A stretch of 64,000 nucleotides of DNA from Planctomycetota bacterium (GTDB taxonomy: Bacteria > Planctomycetota > Phycisphaerae > Phycisphaerales > SM1A02): the NCBI GenBank assembly GCA_016872835.1, contig VGYX01000004.1, forward strand, positions 62,001 to 126,000, given 5' to 3'. The translations under genes were made by a program, and so were the position numbers. Of the stretch, positions 6,491-64,000 are shown piece by piece. The notes below the pieces were generated by a model. That model did no database searches, was not told the DNA's origin, and was given only the letters and a program-made list of their open reading frames with translations. The stretch's first letter is position 1. Every line of letters starts with the position of its first letter.

Positions 6491-7522
6491 ATGGCTTCCT
6501 TCCTGCGGGCGATGACGGCCGAGGCGCTTGCGGCGCTGACGCCGAGGCGCGAGGGGGAGCGTCGCTTGGGCGAGACATTTCGGACGTTGCCCGCCAGCGC
6601 GAGCCTGAGGGAGGGGCTTCGGGCAGTTCCCGATGCTGGATTCGCGCTGCTGCTGATCCCCGAGGACATTGGGGTACGGGCCAATTTCGGGCGCCCAGGT
6701 GCGGCTGCACTGCCGATGGCCGCGCTTCGCCGCCTCGCCGCCATGCAGGACAATCCCTCGCTTCGCGGAGCCGACGTGGTCGTGGCCGGCGAGGTCGAGG
6801 TGCAGGATCTGATGCAGCAGGCCGTGCGGCTGGATCCGAATCGCGCGGCGGATCTCGACACGCTTCACGCGCTCGTGACCGAGGTCGACGCACGCGTGGC
6901 GAACGTGGTCGAGGCGATCGTGCGGGCGGGCAAGGAGGTCGTGGCGATCGGTGGCGGTCACGAGAACGCCTTCGGAATCCTCGCCGGTGTGCGCGCAGCG
7001 AAGAGCTGCGCCATCGGCTGCCTGAATCTGGACGCGCACGCCGATCTGCGCGTCGACGCGGGTCGCCACAGCGGCAATCCGTTTTCGCACGCGCTGCAGG
7101 CGGGGCATCTGGCTCGCTACGCAGCGATCGGCCTGCACGAGACCTACCTGAACGAGGCGATGTGGCGCGTGCTTGAGCAGGACGAGCGCGTGCTCGGCGT
7201 GACGCTGGAGTGCGTGCTTCGAGGCGAACTGCAAGCCGAGGAGGCGTGCGCGCGTGGCTTGGCACACCTCGGGACAGGTCCCATGACGCTGGAGGTCGAT
7301 CTGGACGCGATCGCGGGCGTCTCGGCGAGCGCCGCAACGCCGAGCGGATTGTCGGCGGAGCAGGTGCGCACGATGGTGTGTCGCGTGTCGAGCGCCGCCG
7401 AGGTCGCGGCGATCCATGTGTGCGAGGGCATTCCCGGCGACGGTGATCCGCTGGGTGTCGGCAAGTTGGCGGCTCTGGTGGCCTGCGACTTCATCAAGGC
7501 GCGACAGGGACGCGGTCGGTGA
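6491..7522 (+). CDS. Ureohydrolase (formimidoylglutamase/arginase family)
   Basis: This 343-residue member of the arginase/agmatinase/formimidoylglutamase superfamily hydrolyses a guanidino- or formimino-type C-N bond with a binuclear Mn centre. The metal ligands are all visible: His157 in GGGHEN, Asp181/His183/Asp185 in NLDAHADLR, and Asp270/Asp272 in [19 protein letters not shown] after the DAHAD motif fits the formimidoylglutamase (HutG) branch best, but no other hut genes are nearby, so the substrate is uncertain. It starts at an ATG with TAGCAT 9 nt upstream. Its stop overlaps the ROK kinase start (GTGA), forming a three-gene operon. Confidence 0.8.
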
Positions 7523-8436
7523 GCGCACGCCCGCTGATCGGCGTGGATCTGGGCGGAACGAAGGTCGAGGCGGCGGTGATCGAGCCGAATGGCACCGTGC
7601 TGTGGCGTGCGCGGGAGTCGACGCCGCCCGGCGACTACGAGGGCACGATCGCGACCGTCGCGGGATTGGTTCGCCGTGCGCGCGCGCAGGCGCCGAAGGC
7701 GCATGGCGCCGGTCTGGGTCACCCCGGTTCAAGCAGTCCCGTGACCGGCCTGCATCGCAACGCCAACAGCACCTGTCTGAACGGCATGCCGCTGCTTGCG
7801 GATCTGGAGCGCGCACTGGGCATGCCGGTGCGTGGCGCGAACGACGCGAACTGCCTTGCGTTGAGCGAGGCCATCGATGGAGCGGGCAAGGGCGTGCGAA
7901 CGGTGTTCGGCGTGATTCTTGGAACGGGATGTGGCGGCGGGGTGGTGGTCGATCGCCGCGTCATCGAGGGCGCCAATGGCATCGCGGGCGAGTGGGGCCA
8001 CATGCCACTGCCGGGAGCTTCCGCGGCCGAGCTGGCCATGCCGTGCTGGTGTGGCCGTCGTGCGTGTCTGGAGCTGTTCCTCAGCGGTCCGGGCGTGGAG
8101 GCCGATCATGTGCGTCATGGCGGCGACCGTGCGATCCGACTTCCGCGGATCGCGTGGCTTGCGCAGTCCGGTGACGCGTGCGCGAGCGCCACGCTGCAAC
8201 GATGGATCGAGCGGCTCGGTCGCGCGCTGGGCGCGGTCTGCAACATCCTGGATCCCGACGCGATCGTGCTGGGCGGTGGCGCGAGTCTCGTGCCAGGTCT
8301 TGCGGAGCGGTTGCCGGCCGCGATCGCGCCGCACTGCTTCAGTGATCGTTTCGTCACGCCGGTCCGGCTGGCGATGCATGGCGACAGCAGCGGCGTGCGC
8401 GGCGCGGCGTGGCTGTTCGCTACCTTCCCTCCATGA
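7519..8436 (+). CDS. ROK-family sugar kinase (fructokinase/glucokinase type)
   Basis: This cytoplasmic ATP-dependent hexose kinase of the ROK family has 305 residues. It shows the phosphate-binding [16 protein letters not shown] at the N-terminus, [13 protein letters not shown] with the catalytic Asp, the GTGCGGG adenosine region, EWGHM, and the zinc motif [10 protein letters not shown]. The GTG start overlaps the upstream stop, and the stop overlaps the start of the next gene (ATGA), so three genes are coupled. With a Gfo/Idh/MocA oxidoreductase next door it is probably part of carbohydrate use. The exact sugar cannot be read from the sequence. Confidence 0.88.
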
Positions 8437-57220: not shown

Positions 57221-57240
57221 GGTCGGCATGGATGCCGACC
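57221..57240. repeat. Perfect inverted repeat upstream of the flagellar operon
   Basis: GGTCGGCAT and ATGCCGACC form 9-bp arms around a 2-bp centre (GG). A third partial copy, ATGCCGA, lies just upstream (57206-57212). It sits between the divergent bamD and fliO genes, a position suited to an operator. The binding protein is unknown. Confidence 0.5.
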
Positions 57241-57281
57241 GAGCCAGCGGTGTGCTGGCCGTTTTGATCGAGGGCCCAGCC

Positions 57282-57707
57282 ATGGATCGGCGCCTGCCCA
57301 CCAGAGCGAGCATGCTCGTGTTCCGTTGTACCTGTGTCGCAGGCGCGATGTCGCTTGGGAGTGCGGCACTGGCGATGGATCCGGAGGCCCAGGTGGTGTC
57401 GATGCATGCGGCTGCACCGTCCGATGTGAGCGCTGGAGCGTGGATTCCGCTGCTGGTCTGTCTGGTCGCGGGGTTGGTCGCGGCGTTCGCGCTGGTGCGG
57501 CGCGCTCAGCGACTCCAGCGGCGGCCCTCCTCGGGTATTCAGGTCATGGATCGCACCCAGATGGGTCGAGGTCGATCGCTCTCGCTGGTGCGGGTCGGTG
57601 ATCGTGTGGTGCTGGTGGGCGAGAGCGCGCAGGGATTCCAGCGTCTGGCCGAGTTCAGCGCCGACGCCCCCGAAGCGCCCGCAGCCCTTCGGAGGCTCGC
57701 GTCGTGA
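57282..57707 (+). CDS. fliO: FliO-like flagellar protein export protein
   Basis: FliO assists assembly of the FliPQR export gate. The 141-residue protein has an N-terminal signal-like segment, one membrane span (IPLLVCLVAGLVAAFALV), and the cytoplasmic FliO domain with IQVMDRTQMGRGRSLSLVRVG and VVLVGESAQGFQRL. The start at 57282 (MDRRLPTRAS) is taken; an ATG at 57228 falls in the inverted repeat region. The stop overlaps the fliP start (GTGA). FliO is poorly conserved, so position before fliP is important evidence. Confidence 0.8.
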   Translation: MDRRLPTRASMLVFRCTCVAGAMSLGSAALAMDPEAQVVSMHAAAPSDVSAGAWIPLLVCLVAGLVAAFALVRRAQRLQRRPSSGIQVMDRTQMGRGRSLSLVRVGDRVVLVGESAQGFQRLAEFSADAPEAPAALRRLAS

Positions 57708-58393
57708 TCGCCTCCGTGCCCGCAGGCATCGAGACGGGCGCGCAATGGGCCGCCACGGCGCTGGCGGTCACGCTGTTGCCTGCCGGCCTTGCGCTCTGCA
57801 CGTGCTTCCCTCGCATGCTGGTCACGCTCGGGATCTTGCGGCAGGGGCTGGGGCTCGGTTCGGTGCCCGGTGGACTCGTGATGACGGGGCTCGCCGCGGC
57901 GCTCACCTTCGCTTCCATGGGGCCCACGCTGGATGCGGCGTGGCGCGGCGGGCTTGCCAGTCTTGCGGCCGGCAACTCCAAGGATCCATCAGCCTCGCTG
58001 CGCGGGGCCGAGACGCCGTTGCGTACGTTCATGTTCGACCAGTTGGAACGCTCCGGCGGCGGATCCACGCTGGCCACGGTCCTGCGGGCGAAGGGACAGG
58101 CGATCGATCCCGCCGCGCCGCCATCGCGGCGTGACATCGACACGATGACCTTGCTGCCCGCGTACGCGCTGAACGAACTGCGCGTGGCGTGCATGCTCGG
58201 CTTCAAGTTGCTGCTGCCGTTCCTTGCGATCGATCTTGCGGTGGCCGCCACGCTGGCGAGCCTCGGCATGTTCATGACGCCACCCACGCTCGTCAGCCTT
58301 CCGCTGAAGCTGATGCTGTTCGTCGCGGTCGATGGGTGGGCGCTGGTCTCCTCGGGTCTGGTCACGGGCGTCACGGGAGGCACGGCCACATGA
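57704..58393 (+). CDS. fliP: Flagellar biosynthetic protein FliP
   Basis: FliP is the main subunit of the flagellar type III export gate in the inner membrane. The 229-residue protein has FPRMLVTLGILRQGLGLG, PLRTFMFDQLER, and the highly conserved C-terminal half (LLPAYALNELRVACMLGFKLLLPFLAIDL in parts, then SLGMFMTPPTLVSLPLKLMLFVAVDGWAL). The usual PPNQ after the first motif is replaced by VPGG, a mild divergence. It overlaps fliO and fliQ. Confidence 0.93.
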   Translation: MIASVPAGIETGAQWAATALAVTLLPAGLALCTCFPRMLVTLGILRQGLGLGSVPGGLVMTGLAAALTFASMGPTLDAAWRGGLASLAAGNSKDPSASLRGAETPLRTFMFDQLERSGGGSTLATVLRAKGQAIDPAAPPSRRDIDTMTLLPAYALNELRVACMLGFKLLLPFLAIDLAVAATLASLGMFMTPPTLVSLPLKLMLFVAVDGWALVSSGLVTGVTGGTAT

Positions 58394-58644
58394 GCGACGC
58401 CGGAATGCTTGGACTTCTGCAGGCCGCTTTCGGCGTGGCGCTGGTGGTGGCCTTGCCGCTGCTGCTGCTTGCGCTTGGAACGGGCATCGTGTCGGGATTG
58501 CTGCAGTCGCTCGCGAACGTGCACGACGCCGCAGCGGGCTTCGCGCCAAGGTTGCTTGTGACGGCCGTGGGCGCACTTGCGCTGGCTGGCTGGATGACCG
58601 CCAAGATGATCGACTTTGCCATGCGCTGCTGGGGGAGCGCATGA
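58390..58644 (+). CDS. fliQ: Flagellar biosynthetic protein FliQ
   Basis: FliQ is a small two-span gate subunit. The 84-residue protein has two hydrophobic helices (VALVVALPLLLLALGTGIVSG and LLVTAVGALALAGWMTAKMI) and the LLQSLANVHDAAAGFAPRLL loop that matches the family's QAxTQI region loosely. The ATG overlaps the fliP stop and the stop overlaps fliR, as expected for a stoichiometric gate. Confidence 0.88.
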   Translation: MSDAGMLGLLQAAFGVALVVALPLLLLALGTGIVSGLLQSLANVHDAAAGFAPRLLVTAVGALALAGWMTAKMIDFAMRCWGSA

Positions 58645-59378
58645 GTGAGCAGGCGTGGATGGCCATGCTGCTGCCGGGAATGCCCGCGATGCTGCGCGCG
58701 GCGGGGGCGGCGCTGCTTGTGCCCGCCTTCACGGGCATGCCGGGTTCCATGCGCGCCGGTCTGGTGCTGATCGCGGCGGTGGTCGCGTGGCCGATGGGCG
58801 CGGGAACCATGGTGCCCGCGGAGTCGCCGTGGCTCTGGGCCCCGCAGGAACTCGTGGTGGGCGCGATGGTCGGTGCCACGGCGGCGGCCGCGGCGAGCGG
58901 TCTTCGGCTCGCGGGCCGACTGATCGGTGAGCAGATGGGGCTTGGGCTTGGCGATGCGGCGCAGCCGGAAGCTGCGGAACCTGAGGGCAATGCGGCGGAA
59001 GCGACGCTGGGCTGGTGCTCGGCCGCCTGCTTTGTGGCGGTTGGAGGCATCGAGACCGTCGTGACCACCGCGGCGCGTGGACGCGAGGGCCAGGCGGCGT
59101 GGGGATTCGGGGCCGAGGGCATCGCATCGGCGCTTGACGCGGCATCGCAGCTGGCGCTTCGCGTGAGCCTTCCGGTGCTCGCGCTCACGATGGCGGGGGC
59201 CGCGATCGGAGGTGTGATCGTGCGATCGGCACCCGGCGTGATGACGCTTGCGGGTGGTTTCGGCGTGCGCGCCGCGACGGGCCTTGGCATGCTTGCCGCG
59301 ACCGCCGTTGGCGTGTGGGCCGCGCAGACCGAGCTGCTGCGCGGCGTTCTTGCGCGGCTGGCGGGAGGGGTGGCGTGA
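58641..59378 (+). CDS. fliR: Flagellar biosynthetic protein FliR
   Basis: FliR forms the export gate with FliP and FliQ. The 245-residue polytopic protein has the LVPAFTGMPGSMRAGLVLIAAVV region, ELVVGAMVGATAAAAASGLRLAGRLIGEQMGLGL (in two neighbouring motifs), and a C-terminal hydrophobic region. It is diverged, and identification leans on gene order between fliQ and flhB. Coupled to both neighbours by 4-bp overlaps. Confidence 0.88.
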   Translation: MSEQAWMAMLLPGMPAMLRAAGAALLVPAFTGMPGSMRAGLVLIAAVVAWPMGAGTMVPAESPWLWAPQELVVGAMVGATAAAAASGLRLAGRLIGEQMGLGLGDAAQPEAAEPEGNAAEATLGWCSAACFVAVGGIETVVTTAARGREGQAAWGFGAEGIASALDAASQLALRVSLPVLALTMAGAAIGGVIVRSAPGVMTLAGGFGVRAATGLGMLAATAVGVWAAQTELLRGVLARLAGGVA

Positions 59379-60070
59379 ACTTTCTGGGCGATGGAGAGGA
59401 GCGGCCGGTCGAGGCGTCGCCCGCGCGGCGAGCCCGTGCGATCGAGGACGGTCATGGGCCGCGCGCGCCGTGGCTGGCCTCGGCGGTGAGTGGACTGATC
59501 GCGCTTGGACTTCTTTCGCTGGCGGCGGGCCCGATCGCGATCGGTGCGAAGGGTTGGCTTCGTGGCTCACTGGCGGTGGATGCTTCAGCCGTGTCAGGAA
59601 GCGACTGGCGCGCGGCCGTGCTGCCGGCCTTGATCGCGACCTTGCTGGTCCTGGGTGCCGCGGCGGCTGCGCACGTGCTTGTGCACGGAGGCTGGACGCG
59701 GCTGCGCTCGTGGCGACCGATGCCGCGCACGCCCTTGGCGGCGCGCCTGCGATCGGTCTCCGCCGGATGGATCCTGGCGATCTCCGCGATCGTCGGCGGT
59801 GTGGTGGCGATCGTGCCATGGATCGCGGCGCTTCCATCGCTCGTGCATCGTCCGCTTGGCGACGCCCTCTGGGGCGCGACGCTGTTCGTGGGTGCAGGGG
59901 CCCTTGGAGCCTTGCTTGCGGCGCTCGTGCTCGGCTTCCTGCAGCTGCGATTGGCGATGCGTGCCTTCGATCGAACCCTCCGCATGACCCGATCCGACGC
60001 GCAGCGTGAGGATCGAGCCTCCGCTCCGCGCATGCGCCGGGGCCCGATGGGCCGATGGAGGTTGGCGTGA
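59375..60070 (+). CDS. flhB: FlhB-like protein, truncated before the cytoplasmic autocleavage domain
   Basis: FlhB controls the switch from hook to filament export through its cytoplasmic domain, which cleaves itself at NPTH. The 231-residue protein keeps the N-terminal GEERPVEASPARRARAIEDGHGPR (in parts) and four membrane segments. It ends just after LRMTRSDAQRED, equivalent to LRMSRQDIRDE in E. coli. The entire FlhBC domain with NPTH is missing, with no frameshifted remnant, because the flhA start follows directly (GTGA overlap). The GTG start overlaps fliR. Confidence 0.82.
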   Translation: MNFLGDGEERPVEASPARRARAIEDGHGPRAPWLASAVSGLIALGLLSLAAGPIAIGAKGWLRGSLAVDASAVSGSDWRAAVLPALIATLLVLGAAAAAHVLVHGGWTRLRSWRPMPRTPLAARLRSVSAGWILAISAIVGGVVAIVPWIAALPSLVHRPLGDALWGATLFVGAGALGALLAALVLGFLQLRLAMRAFDRTLRMTRSDAQREDRASAPRMRRGPMGRWRLA

Positions 60071-62115
60071 GCATGCCGCGAGGTCGATTCGAGTGGCTCG
60101 TTCCGGCCCTGTTCGTGGGTCTCGTGGCCACGCTCGTCCTGCCGTTGCCGGCGTGGGCGATGGACGTGCTGATCGTGGTGAATTTCGCGTTGAGCGGCGT
60201 GGTGCTCGCCACCGCCGCGAGCATGCGCCGGCCACTCGACTTCAGCGTGTTTCCGGCGCTGGTTCTTGGCACCACCTTGCTTCGACTGGGCCTGAACGTG
60301 GCCAGCACGCGGCTGATTCTGGGCACCGAAGCACCTGACGCGGCCTCGGCGGCGGCCAGCGCCGGCAGCATCATCGAGGCCTTCGGATTGCTGGGAGCCG
60401 GCCGCAATCCCGTCGTGGGGCTGAGCGTCTTCGCCATGCTGGTGGTGGTGCAGTTCGTGGTCGTCACGCGCGGCTCGGTGCGCATGGGCGAGGTCGCCGC
60501 ACGTTTCGCGCTCGACGCACTGCCTGGTCGACAGATGGCGATCGACGCGGACCTTGCCGGAGGCGCGATCGATGCCACCGAGGCGCGCCGCCGTCGCGAG
60601 GAGTTGCTGCGCGAAGCGGACTTCCACGGCGCGATGGACGGCGCCGGTCGCTTCGTGCGCGGCGACGCCGTGGCGGGTCTGCTGATCGTGCTGGTGAACA
60701 TCGTGGGTGGCGTGCTGGTGGGTGTGCTGCAGAAAGGGTGGGGCGCCGCCGAGAGCGCGCGCGTGTTCGCGCTGCTGGCCGTGGGCGACGGCCTGGTCAC
60801 GCAGATCCCGGCATTCCTGGTGGCCACGGCCAGCGGACTCGTGAGCGCCAAGGCCGCCAGCGGTGACACGCTTGGTCGCGAGATTCCGCAGCAACTCGCC
60901 TCGAAGCCGGCCGCACTCTGGCTGGTGGCGGCGTTGCTGGTGGGACTTGCGTGCACCTCGTTGCCGGCGGTGCCGCTGCTTGGCGCGGCCGCGCTGCTGG
61001 CGGGAGCGGCCATCTGGACGGCGCGCGTGCGTGCGGCGGCCTCCGCAGCCGAGTCGCCGGTGCAAGTCGAGTCCGATCGCATCGAGGATGCCCTGATGGT
61101 CGAGCCGCTCTCGATCGATCTCGGCGTTGGATTGCTCTCGCTGGCGTCCGAGGCGCCGGGCGCGCTGCTGGACCAGGTCGCGTCGGTGCGGCGTCGTCTG
61201 GCGCAGGAGATGGGGGTGCTGGTCCCGGCGGTGCGCGTTCGCGATGATGCGGCGCTCGACCCCTTGGCGTACTGCATTCGCCTGCGCGACGCCGTGGTCG
61301 CCGCGGGAAGCCTGCGCACGAACGCGTTGCTCGTCATGGATCCCAAGGGCGGCGTTCCGGATGTGGCAGGGGAGCCGACCACGGAACCCGCACATGGCCT
61401 TCCCGCCGTCTGGGTGCCTGCGCAGTCGCGCCAAGCCCTTGAGGCGCGCGGCTTGGCGATCGCCGACCCTTCGGGCGCTCTGGCGGGCCACCTGATGGAG
61501 GTGTTGCGACGCAGGGCGTGGGAGCTGCTGAGCGTGGAGGAGGTGGGCCGCATGCTCGATCGCCTCCAGCGCACCGCGCCGCGCGCCGCGGCACTGATTT
61601 CAGGGTCCGCGTGGCCGATCGATCGCCTGCGCGACCTCCTGCAGGGCCTGTTGCGGGAGGGGCTGCCAGTCCGGGACCTCGAGCGCATCGCGGAGACCGT
61701 GCATGCGGCCAATCCGCAGGATCCCGACGACGCCATCCGTCGTGCGCGTTCGGTCGGGGCGCGCGCGCTGTGCGAGCGGCTGATCCAGCGCATCGGCGGC
61801 AACGGCCGTCAGCTGTCGGCCGTGTGGGTCGGCGCCGAGGCGCTGGAGGGCGAGGCGGCGTTGCGAGCGGCGGAACGCAGCGTGGTGCCGGATGCGGCGA
61901 TCGCAGAGCGTCTGGTGCGGAGCGCGGCACCAGGACTTCGGCGTCTGCTTGAGCGAGGCGAGCCGGCTGTGGTCGTGACGCCCGACCGTATGCGCGGCGT
62001 GGTGAGTCGCGCGTTGCGAGGACGGCTCGGCGAAGTCACCGTGCTCGCGCGGGGCGAGATTCCGCAGGATTGCGAACTTCACATCGAGTCGGCGGGCGAA
62101 CCCGCCGCTGCATGA
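60067..62115 (+). CDS. flhA: Flagellar biosynthesis protein FlhA
   Basis: FlhA is the nonameric export gate subunit that receives substrates and chaperones. The 682-residue protein shows RLGLNVASTRLIL, GRQMAIDADLAGGAIDATEARRRREELLREADFHGAMDGAGRFVRGDAVAG (in consecutive motifs), GDGLVTQIPAFLVATASGLV, and a C-terminal cytoplasmic domain. The GTG at 60067 overlaps the flhB stop; ATG 60055 is an alternative. The cytoplasmic domain seems complete, in contrast to FlhB. Confidence 0.94.
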   Translation: MSMPRGRFEWLVPALFVGLVATLVLPLPAWAMDVLIVVNFALSGVVLATAASMRRPLDFSVFPALVLGTTLLRLGLNVASTRLILGTEAPDAASAAASAGSIIEAFGLLGAGRNPVVGLSVFAMLVVVQFVVVTRGSVRMGEVAARFALDALPGRQMAIDADLAGGAIDATEARRRREELLREADFHGAMDGAGRFVRGDAVAGLLIVLVNIVGGVLVGVLQKGWGAAESARVFALLAVGDGLVTQIPAFLVATASGLVSAKAASGDTLGREIPQQLASKPAALWLVAALLVGLACTSLPAVPLLGAAALLAGAAIWTARVRAAASAAESPVQVESDRIEDALMVEPLSIDLGVGLLSLASEAPGALLDQVASVRRRLAQEMGVLVPAVRVRDDAALDPLAYCIRLRDAVVAAGSLRTNALLVMDPKGGVPDVAGEPTTEPAHGLPAVWVPAQSRQALEARGLAIADPSGALAGHLMEVLRRRAWELLSVEEVGRMLDRLQRTAPRAAALISGSAWPIDRLRDLLQGLLREGLPVRDLERIAETVHAANPQDPDDAIRRARSVGARALCERLIQRIGGNGRQLSAVWVGAEALEGEAALRAAERSVVPDAAIAERLVRSAAPGLRRLLERGEPAVVVTPDRMRGVVSRALRGRLGEVTVLARGEIPQDCELHIESAGEPAAA

Positions 62116-62132
62116 GGACACGAGGAGACATC

Positions 62133-63005
62133 GTGACGGAACCAACGCGTTGCCTGGGTCGTTCGGAGCGGGATGCATTGCAGCGGGCGCACGCGCGTCA
62201 TCCCGGAGGATTCGAGATTCTCGAGTGGCGGCGCTCGCAGCAAAGCCGGAAGGCGCCGGTGGAACTGCTGGTCCGGCCGATCGGAACGCGTGCGTCGATG
62301 GCGCGCACGCGGCTGCGTCTGCTGGCCAGCGTGACCGCCCTGCGCGCGCAGGCCGCCGAGGGTCGCTTCGATCCGGGGTCCCTGCGAACGGTGACAGTCG
62401 TACCTTCCTCGGGTGCACGCGAGGTCTGGGCGTTCCTCGGTGCGCCGGGAAGCGGCGTCACGCGCGTGGTGTGCGGACTGGCGGCGCGCCTGAATGGCCG
62501 TGATCGCTGCAATGTCGGCCTGCTTTCCGCAGGCGACGAGACGCACGCCAACGATCTGCGCGGCTTCGCCGACGCGCTCGGCCTGCCGCTGCACGCCTCA
62601 CCGCGAGCCGCGGACATCGCCGATGTCGCGGCTAGCCTCGGGCATCGATCGCTCGTGCTGGTGGACTTCCCCGGTGCCGGCCCACGCGACGGCGACCGTC
62701 TGGGTTCGCATGCCCGTGCGCTGCAGGCACTTGCGCCGCAGGCGGTCTGCGCGGTGCTGGCGGCCGACGCCGACGAGGCCGCCTTGCGACGACAGCTTGA
62801 GGTGTCCATCCGGGTCGGTGCCACCTGCGTGGCGCTGACGCGCGTGGATCTTGCCGCTCGTCTGGAGCCCGTGCTGCGCGTGATCGCGGCGACGGGTCTG
62901 CCTCTGGCATGGGTGGGACATGGAAGCGGGACCTCGAGTGATCTTGCGCCCGTCACGTCCGGATGGATCGAGCGCGTGTGCGAGCGACATCACGCGATGG
63001 CGTGA
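62133..63005 (+). CDS. flhF: FlhF-like SRP-type GTPase homologue lacking the P-loop lysine
   Basis: FlhF is a GTPase that places flagella. The 290-residue protein keeps the fold order: the P-loop region (VWAFLGAPGSGVTR), then VGLLSAGDETHANDLRGFADALGLPL (in parts), the LVLVDFPGAGPRD G3 region, ALTRVDLAARLEPVL and a final GLPLAWVGHGSG. The Walker A Lys is Val, and the SRP-type DTYR is changed, so GTP binding is doubtful. GTG 62133 with AGGAG 5-6 nt upstream is chosen; ATG 62112 overlapping flhA is possible. It is the last gene before a sigma factor. Confidence 0.75.
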   Translation: MTEPTRCLGRSERDALQRAHARHPGGFEILEWRRSQQSRKAPVELLVRPIGTRASMARTRLRLLASVTALRAQAAEGRFDPGSLRTVTVVPSSGAREVWAFLGAPGSGVTRVVCGLAARLNGRDRCNVGLLSAGDETHANDLRGFADALGLPLHASPRAADIADVAASLGHRSLVLVDFPGAGPRDGDRLGSHARALQALAPQAVCAVLAADADEAALRRQLEVSIRVGATCVALTRVDLAARLEPVLRVIAATGLPLAWVGHGSGTSSDLAPVTSGWIERVCERHHAMA

Positions 63006-63183: not shown

Positions 63184-64000
63184 ATGTCCAAGGCAAGTGC
63201 ACAGCCGCGTTCCGGAGCCAGGAAGGCCACCGCGCAGGCTGCACCCGTTTCGCAGTCCAAATCGCAATCGCGCCGAGGCGCGACCCGTGGTCGTTCGGCC
63301 AAGCCGGCGGCACCGGCCCCCGAGACCATGCCCCTTGACACCCCCGAGGCGATCGATGCCGCGTGGCGGTGCTACGTGGGCCTGCCTTCGGAGACCGTCT
63401 CTCGGCAGGCGCTCCGCAACCGCCTCATCGAGCGTTATCTCGACGTGGTGCGCTTCACCGCCGAGCGCCTGCACAAGCGGCTGCCAAGCGAGGTCGATGT
63501 GGAGGACCTCATGAGTGCCGGCCTCTTCGGGCTCATGGACGCGATCGACGCGTTCGACCCCGATCGTGGCGTGAAGTTCGAGACCTACTGCGCGCAGCGC
63601 ATCCGCGGCGCGATCTTCGACGAGCTGCGTGCCATGGACTGGGTGCCGCGCCTGGTGCGCAGCCGCACCGCCAAGGTCGAGCGCGTGCGCAAGACCATCG
63701 AGATGGAAGAGGGGCACAAGCCCACCGACGCCGAGGTCGCCAAGCGCCTGAACGTCGCGCCCGAAGAATTCGAGAAGCTCAGTCGTGACAGCCGTCCGGT
63801 CAGCGTGGTGAGCATGCACCGCAAGTGGAACGACGCGGACGCGGGCAAGGAGGGCCGTGAGGTCGACGTGATCGAGGACGCGCGGCAGGACCGCCCGCTC
63901 GACCGTCTTCACCGCAACGACGTGCAGGCGCTGCTCACGAAGGGTCTCAGCCGCGCCGAGCGCCTCATCCTCATCCTCTACTACTACGAGGAGATGACGA
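63184..64000 (+). CDS. FliA/WhiG-type sigma factor (incomplete at window edge)
   Basis: The first 272 residues are present; the 3' end lies beyond the window. An N-terminal basic, Ala/Ser-rich extension of about 45 residues precedes sigma region 1.2-2 (LIERYLDVVRFTAERLHKRLPSEVDVEDLMSAGLFGLMDAI in parts). Region 2.4 follows (DRGVKFETYCAQRIRGAIFDELRAMDWVPRLVR in parts), then region 3 (KPTDAEVAKRLNVAPEEF) and the start of region 4 (LSRAERLILILYYYEEMT). This matches FliA/WhiG sigma factors, which direct flagellar or developmental genes. The position next to flagellar genes suggests a flagellar role. Confidence 0.9.
   Translation, partial: MSKASAQPRSGARKATAQAAPVSQSKSQSRRGATRGRSAKPAAPAPETMPLDTPEAIDAAWRCYVGLPSETVSRQALRNRLIERYLDVVRFTAERLHKRLPSEVDVEDLMSAGLFGLMDAIDAFDPDRGVKFETYCAQRIRGAIFDELRAMDWVPRLVRSRTAKVERVRKTIEMEEGHKPTDAEVAKRLNVAPEEFEKLSRDSRPVSVVSMHRKWNDADAGKEGREVDVIEDARQDRPLDRLHRNDVQALLTKGLSRAERLILILYYYEEMT

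Follow-up and report, generated by a model that had tools for sequence, protein, structure and literature searches.

A planctomycete genus without a flagellum retains an export gate with a truncated FlhB

The gate locus and its truncated FlhB

The window, a stretch of 64,000 nucleotides from contig VGYX01000004.1 of a planctomycete genome, contains a flagellar export-gate locus with the gene order fliO-fliP-fliQ-fliR-flhB-flhA-flhF-like-sigma (Table 1). FliP, FliQ, FliR and FlhA all score over the Pfam cut-off and are intact. A preliminary description of this DNA had called the export gate otherwise complete, and with fliO, fliP, fliQ, fliR and flhA intact around flhB, we agree. The FliP reads MFMTPP at the place of MMMVPP in a solved FliP. 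Upstream of the gate, the opposite strand carries ftsH and a 479-aa frame of no recognised class. In the genus, the other 13 gate loci show an identical gene order wherever their contigs extend, except for G009, which has no flhF-like match. The FlhF-like GTPase (window 62091-63005) is 55 and 58% identical in two loci of its own subclade and degenerate in the other subclade, where 62-68 residues align in eight loci and none in G009. In G015, fliP is broken across two frames (L044:7582-8246), which was seen in a single assembly and could reflect a sequencing error.

Table 1. Features of the gate locus, with positions in the window, and two further genes of the same genome (G000), with positions on contigs C5 and C16.
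Feature	Position	Strand	Evidence or remark
fliO-like gene	57228..57707	+	PF04347 E 2.5e-9; TIGR03500 E 9.7e-12; synteny across genus loci
fliP, export-gate channel subunit	57704..58393	+	PF00813 E 4e-48
fliQ	58390..58644	+	PF01313 E 2.7e-12
fliR	58641..59378	+	PF01311 E 1.5e-18
flhB, membrane domain only, without FlhBC or NPTH	59375..60070	+	PF01312 1-221/335; genus alignment
FlhB_L, loop between FlhB helices 2 and 3	59684..59758	+	alignment
FlhB linker remnant (LRMTRSDAQ...) plus stop	59975..60070	+	alignment
flhA, full length	60067..62115	+	PF00771 E 2e-185; start GTG 60067 or ATG 60073
flhF-like GTPase gene, start uncertain	62091..63005	+	SRP54 PF00448 E 1.4e-8
sigma-28 (FliA/WhiG-like) gene, start uncertain	63184..64000	+	NF004935 E 1e-55; continues beyond window end
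FliF-like gene	C5, about 7372-8406		two hydrophobic segments around one domain, C-terminal part
flgM	C16:19404-19715		TIGR03824 39.4 bits, just below cut-off 40.75

The flhB frame encodes 231 amino acids and matches PF01312 (FlhB/SctU) only over positions 1-221 of the 335 in the profile (E 5e-9); by this match the N-terminal membrane domain of the FlhB/SctU family, with its four helices, is present, and no NPTH occurs anywhere in the frame. The cytoplasmic domain is thus lacking, as had been described, but the stop does not follow directly after LRMTRSDAQRED: the protein continues for 18 residues and ends ...RWRLA, followed by a TGA at 60068-60070. This stop overlaps the GTG start of flhA at 60067, in agreement with the earlier account; an alternative ATG lies at 60073. 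Profile matches to solved FlhB proteins are weak (E 0.003-0.035). An AlphaFold model built with 14 sequences reached a pLDDT of 68, found no FlhB in the PDB by Foldseek and was set aside. Because of this poor model, the assignment as FlhB rests on sequence and gene order.

Thirteen of the 15 other genomes of the genus have an FlhB match, and all 14 proteins comprise the membrane domain only, with 224-236 aa depending on the chosen start codons and NPxH in none of them. The lowest identity to the protein in the window among these truncated proteins is 27%, and each of the 14 flhB stops shares 1 or 4 bases with a possible flhA start codon. The remaining two genomes, G010 and G012, are fragmented assemblies (420 and 570 contigs) without FlhB and FlhA matches, and still have FliF-like and FlgM genes. 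A sequencing error as the cause of the short frame is ruled out, since the same short FlhB is found in 14 assemblies. The truncation is real and is fixed in the genus, in 14 of 14 gate-bearing genomes, which answers the question about relatives that the preliminary description had raised. Outside the genus FlhB matches mostly span the full profile; the exceptions are a truncated FlhB in G040 and partial matches in G031, G039, G058 and G075. In flagellated G031 a second, partial FlhB match (G031:C20:32684-33295, profile 1-197) may be an assembly piece.

Separate FlhBC-like proteins of the FlhX/YlqH type are known in other bacteria, and it had been suggested that such a protein complements the short FlhB and should be sought in the complete genome. 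PF01312 gives a single match in this genome, which is 98.9% complete, and no second one even at E<=10. An FlhBC profile (A1), built from 32 sequences of relatives and searched in 61 genomes at E<=10, matches 41 of them, namely all 38 flagellated genomes together with G018, G019 and G033, and none of the 16 genomes of the genus. Neither search therefore yields an FlhBC-like protein in this genome, nor does the profile search in the 15 others, and supply of FlhBC in trans is hardly tenable; only a protein that the profile fails to recognise, or one hidden in an assembly gap, would rescue it.

The entry of the gate is remodelled as well. Compared with eight aligned flagellated relatives, FlhB_L lacks about 10 residues and a conserved motif in 14 of 14 genus sequences, and the cytoplasmic loop of FliQ, which reads TQIQEQ or similar in the aligned relatives, has become (A/S/T)NV(H/Q)DA. 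G040 has lost the FlhB_L motif and retained the FliQ loop. FlhB_L is the gating loop, a function that we take from an excerpt of PMC7064499. The changed FliQ loop faces the shortened FlhB_L and is touched by it, so the remodelling either speaks against canonical secretion or represents co-adaptation.

Where it was measured, the gate is under purifying selection and is not decaying. Across six close pairs, in some of which a genome recurs, dN/dS is 0.08-0.27 for FlhB, 0.03-0.10 for FlhA and 0.02-0.18 for FliR. For FliP, two close pairs give 0.026 and 0.050, and two others that include the frameshifted G015 sequence give 0.21 and 0.38. Between the window and its three nearest sequences, at dS 0.85-2.4, the values are 0.21-0.39 for FlhB, 0.36-0.47 for FliR and 0.10-0.24 for FlhA and FliP. 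Nine FlhA residues with roles in the proton path, according to excerpts of PMC13308203 and PMC9114704 (R85, R94, R147, R154, D158, D199, D208, D249 and Q254; all numbered after Salmonella FlhA by alignment), are the same in all 14 genus sequences, all 30 relatives with canonical FlhB and the four other rodless genomes. N137 is replaced by Q in all 48 sequences, and at K203 the genus and G040 have R where all others compared have K. Identity to the FlhA in the window is 0.50-0.68 over FlhAC versus 0.74-0.83 over the membrane part (11 comparisons within the genus). The substrate-dimple residues of FlhAC are found in 14/14 (E440), 12/14 (F443) and 10/14 (T474) genus sequences; most of the genus also keeps F459 and T490, at which the FlhA in the window has H and G.

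Loss of the flagellum and the parts that remain

Flagellin (PF00669) and rod/hook proteins (PF00460) match in none of the 16 genomes of the genus; the same 38 of the 61 genomes searched match both. FliE (PF02049) is over the cut-off in 39 of these 61 and in 0 of 16 in the genus, where G013 has one weak match (E 0.05). FliI (TIGR01026) and FliMN (PF01052) are each over the cut-off in 14 of 35 genomes searched and again in none of the 16; the weak FliMN matches in three genus genomes (E 0.06-0.09) and the TIGR01026 matches, which reach 237 bits against a cut-off of 379.5, were taken for chance and F1-type ATPases, respectively. The genus has thus lost the flagellum and keeps FliOPQR, FlhA, the short FlhB, a sigma-28-like gene and a reduced FliF-like protein. 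The preliminary description had offered, as its second option, that the apparatus no longer switches from hook to filament and now has a different export cargo. This option is supported in direction, since without rod, hook or flagellin matches and without FliI or FliMN over the cut-off there is nothing to switch between. What that description did not foresee is that the entire flagellum is gone, that FliF is also reduced and that FlgM is retained. FliE was considered as a substrate of the gate and rejected, as it is over the cut-off in none of the 16 genomes. The genus comes at least partly from lakes. Nemodlikiaceae have a flagellar apparatus according to an excerpt of PMC6461901; we claim no link of the genus to that family.

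The FliF-like protein of the genus is a reduced form in which two hydrophobic segments surround a single ring-building domain and the C-terminal stretch weakly resembles FliG-N. PF01514 matches below the cut-off in nine of the 16 genus genomes (E 0.15 to 9e-5). Profile alignment of six FliF-like proteins of the genus with five FliF gave E 4e-14 over the ring-building region, and the C-terminal part aligned to FliG-N with E 8e-5 and a probability of 62%, against E 0.23-0.25 in swapped controls; Pfam FliG_N matches two of three FliF-like proteins, both below the cut-off (E 0.12-0.15). An AlphaFold model has a mean pLDDT of 66, with block means of 71-90 over the domain, and its best match to the MS-ring domains of solved motors has E 1e-4 (target TM 0.32-0.79 among the top five). 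Beyond this domain, which we take to be the inner ring in which the gate sits, no further ring domain was recognised in the genus protein. The genus FliF-like gene is preceded by a lipoprotein-like gene and by one with a weak RDD match (L050:4983-7299), and frames similar to both lie upstream of fliF in G019.

FlgM is an inhibitor of sigma-28 that is normally exported via the flagellar export gate. PF04316 is over the cut-off in 50 of 61 genomes, including 15 of 16 in the genus; G015 reaches only E 0.65. We fetched 18 FlgM genes, 15 from gate-bearing genomes (eight from the genus, three from other rodless genomes and four from flagellated ones) and three from gateless G016, G020 and G032, of which the G016 protein is below the cut-off. 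All 15 proteins from gate-bearing genomes have the N-terminal M-x-[DE]-[IFV]-x-x-[IV] and DRxExS; as run with [IF] the motif matched 14, and G004 (MSEVNPI, internal start) was added by reading. The three gateless proteins (L178:3880-4212, L177:4678-4986 and L179:4733-5038) lack both elements and keep the remainder. The association with gate presence gives p 0.0012 if the sequences are treated as independent, which they are not. In line with this pattern, 48 of the 50 matches over the cut-off begin at profile position 1, and the two later starters are those of gateless G020 and G032. In G032, as in the genus, this gene lies before one that resembles an amidohydrolase gene.

The sigma gene beside the gate scores 185.9 bits with TIGR02479 against a cut-off of 189.6; its frame is cut by the window end and extends further in L048. 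Of the 13 other genus loci, 11 have a similar sigma gene beside the gate, and the remaining two contigs stop within flhA. The regions upstream of flgM in eight genus loci showed no sigma-28 promoter motif; among the other flgM loci, G064 alone has a near match. Nor could a common motif be recognised ahead of 20 flagellin genes of relatives, among which a perfect sigma-54-type match occurs in L155 alone.

Loss of the cleavage motif accompanies loss of rods beyond the genus. Rods were found in 54 of the 85 genomes tested for them; 18 others have a gate without rods (the 14 of the genus, G018, G019, G033 and G040) and 13 have neither rods nor FlhB/FlhA. The cleavage motif is missing at its place in 18 of 18 gate-bearing rodless genomes and NPxH is kept in 54 of 54 rod-bearing ones, counts that are inflated by shared ancestry. 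The 54 comprise 20 genomes among the 30 with the best-scoring FlhB and 34 that were read additionally; the ten others of these 30, which lie outside the rod-tested set, also keep NPxH. The motif was lost through truncation in the genus and G040, and through substitution within a retained FlhBC in G018, G019 and G033; G018 has an unrelated NPVH inside FlhB_L. In a midpoint-rooted tree of the FlhA membrane half, the genus groups with G040 (99/99), whereas G018 and G019 (80/76) fall inside a group with flagellated family members (84/93); G040 and G033 sit on long branches and their placement is unsure. With this topology, the cleavage motif was likely lost on at least two separate occasions. G018 and G019 are less reduced than the genus in that they keep FliE, FliF and FliG pieces. 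G019 has a FliF-FliG fusion in a 626-aa frame (L061:10106-11986; YscJ_FliF E 9e-20, FliG_C E 4e-20). In G018, where FliI and FliMN are not over the cut-off, FliE, FliF and a shortened FliG (L059:8983-11720) lie downstream of FlgN-like and two-component-like genes, and this FliG has N, middle and C matches.

A possible late-locked gate and competing readings

We favour the reading that the gate is naturally late-locked and would export FlgM to control sigma-28. With FlhBC gone, rod and hook substrates would have no dock, and the gate would permanently remain in the late mode that depends on FlhA. It would need no ATPase and would use the proton motive force to move FlgM out of the cytoplasm, which would free the putative sigma-28 factor encoded beside the gate; a flagellar checkpoint may thus have outlived the flagellum as a stand-alone signalling device. 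The engineered precedent comes from Salmonella. Excerpts of PMC13344023 report that strains lacking rod/hook and Flk have a gate locked in late mode once the cleaved domain of FlhB is lost, through either a stop at 258 or deletion of 270-383, that FlgM then reaches the periplasm independently of FliK and that such C-terminal losses arose from selecting for FlgM export; when Flk was present, loss of the domain did not permit late export. ATPase-independent export is the subject of PMC4230889 according to its title.

In favour of FlgM export are the truncation of FlhB (14/14), the lack of a separate FlhBC in the searches (16/16), the lack of flagellin and rod/hook matches and of FliI and FliMN over the cut-off (0/16), the purifying selection on the gate and its intact proton path, the FliF-like protein, the presence of FlgM (15/16), whose N-terminal motif goes with the gate in the genes fetched, the Salmonella precedent and the convergent loss of the cleavage motif in rodless genomes. 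Against it stand the shortened FlhB_L and changed FliQ loop, the lack of FliE over the cut-off (0/16), an FlhB that is shorter than in the Salmonella strain, the dimple changes in the FlhA of the window, the FlhB dN/dS of 0.21-0.39 between the window and its nearest sequences and the failure to find a sigma-28 promoter motif ahead of flgM in eight genus loci. FlgM can also be kept for another reason, because FlgM-like proteins persist in gateless G016, G020 and G032. Since the genus resembles the late-locked Salmonella genotype but has no FliE and less of FlhB, we give FlgM export an even chance. The retention of the gate under selection after loss of the flagellum, with the switch domain of FlhB deleted and FlgM kept, suggests a present role in signalling. 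That the gate has been kept by selection for this one regulatory substrate, as a late-locked exporter powered by proton motive force only, whose export of an anti-sigma factor would convert energisation of the membrane into sigma-28 transcription without a flagellum, is a proposal we place a little short of even.

The gate could instead be a proton-driven membrane channel with another job, with FlgM retained for plain sigma control; examples would be inner-membrane exchange like that proposed for the FliPQR-FlhBA core in bacterial nanotubes, or the hat-like complexes in fT3SS-bearing species. The remodelled FlhB_L and FliQ loop, the intact FlhA proton path, the failure to find FlhBC, FliE and FliI, and the persistence of FlgM-like genes in gateless genomes would all fit such a channel. 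An excerpt of PMC9380563 describes an inner-membrane structure that is related to flagella and may be independent, and nanotube use is mentioned there and in one of PMC7064499. However, the N-terminal motif of FlgM follows gate presence (15/15 versus 0/3 among the genes fetched), and we consider this channel unlikely, although not far-fetched. Export of another substrate, such as an adhesin, a small effector or a new appendage unrecognisable to family searches, would explain why the FlhAC dimple residues are mostly kept, and an excerpt of PMC7277350 reports that the FT3SS of a non-flagellated Lysobacter exports heterologous flagellin and supports twitching. Yet the gate neighbours in the genus loci (ftsH, the 479-aa frame, flhF-like and sigma) offer no obvious candidate, and neither FliE nor FlhBC, the dock for early substrates, was found, which leaves such a substrate quite unlikely.

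The gate could also be vestigial, a functionless leftover that is being lost. Much of the flagellar machinery has gone, the fliP frame is broken in G015, FlhB and FliR diverge fast between the window and its three nearest sequences (0.21-0.47), and the gate can be lost, since 13 of the 85 rod-tested genomes have neither rods nor FlhB/FlhA. This reading appears very unlikely given low dN/dS in close pairs, a gene order that the 13 other gate loci share as far as their contigs extend, functional FlhA residues that do not vary and an identical truncation in 14 genomes whose FlhB identity falls to 27%.

Comparison with known export gates

Gates without flagella are already known from Lysobacter (PMC7277350), from Myxococcales and a hat-like structure (PMC9380563), and from nanotubes, in each case as given in excerpts of the sources. 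In the titles and abstract openings that our literature searches listed, we found no FlhB without FlhBC described as fixed in a natural lineage, and no flagellum-free gate proposed as an exporter of FlgM. The presence of fliPQR-flhAB in a planktonic genome does not in itself indicate swimming. The FT3SS-like system of Lysobacter enzymogenes resembles that of the genus in that the gate is kept without flagella, but it keeps FliI and its reported role is in twitching (PMC7277350, excerpt). Non-flagellar type III secretion systems derived from the flagellum, as in Myxococcales (PMC9380563, excerpt) and injectisomes, likewise reuse the gate without a flagellum. Their FlhB/SctU is normally autocleaving (PMC7064499, excerpt), whereas the FlhB of the genus lacks the cleavage domain, and no FliI/YscN ATPase is over the cut-off in the genus.

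A similar genotype is that of the Salmonella flhB-delta-CCD strain without rod/hook and flk, which combines a rodless gate, a missing cleaved FlhB domain and FlgM (PMC13344023, here and below from excerpts). That strain was engineered and kept FliE and at least 257 FlhB residues, and its late export needed the loss of Flk and hyperactive flhDC (PMC13344023); the genus is natural and has lost more. With the gate of motile bacteria (FliPQR-FlhB-FlhA) the genus shares the five membrane subunits, FliO and the nine proton-path residues of FlhA. It differs in an FlhB without FlhBC, a short FlhB_L and a changed FliQ loop, and in having no rod, hook or flagellin match and no FliE, FliI or FliMN over the cut-off. 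FlhB has been called essential for all type III secretion (PMC7064499) and described as coupling FlhA to gate opening (PMC13308203), both according to excerpts. A gate with an intact FlhA proton path, a deleted FlhBC, a short FlhB loop and no ATPase found constitutes a natural experiment on which parts the machine needs for which task.
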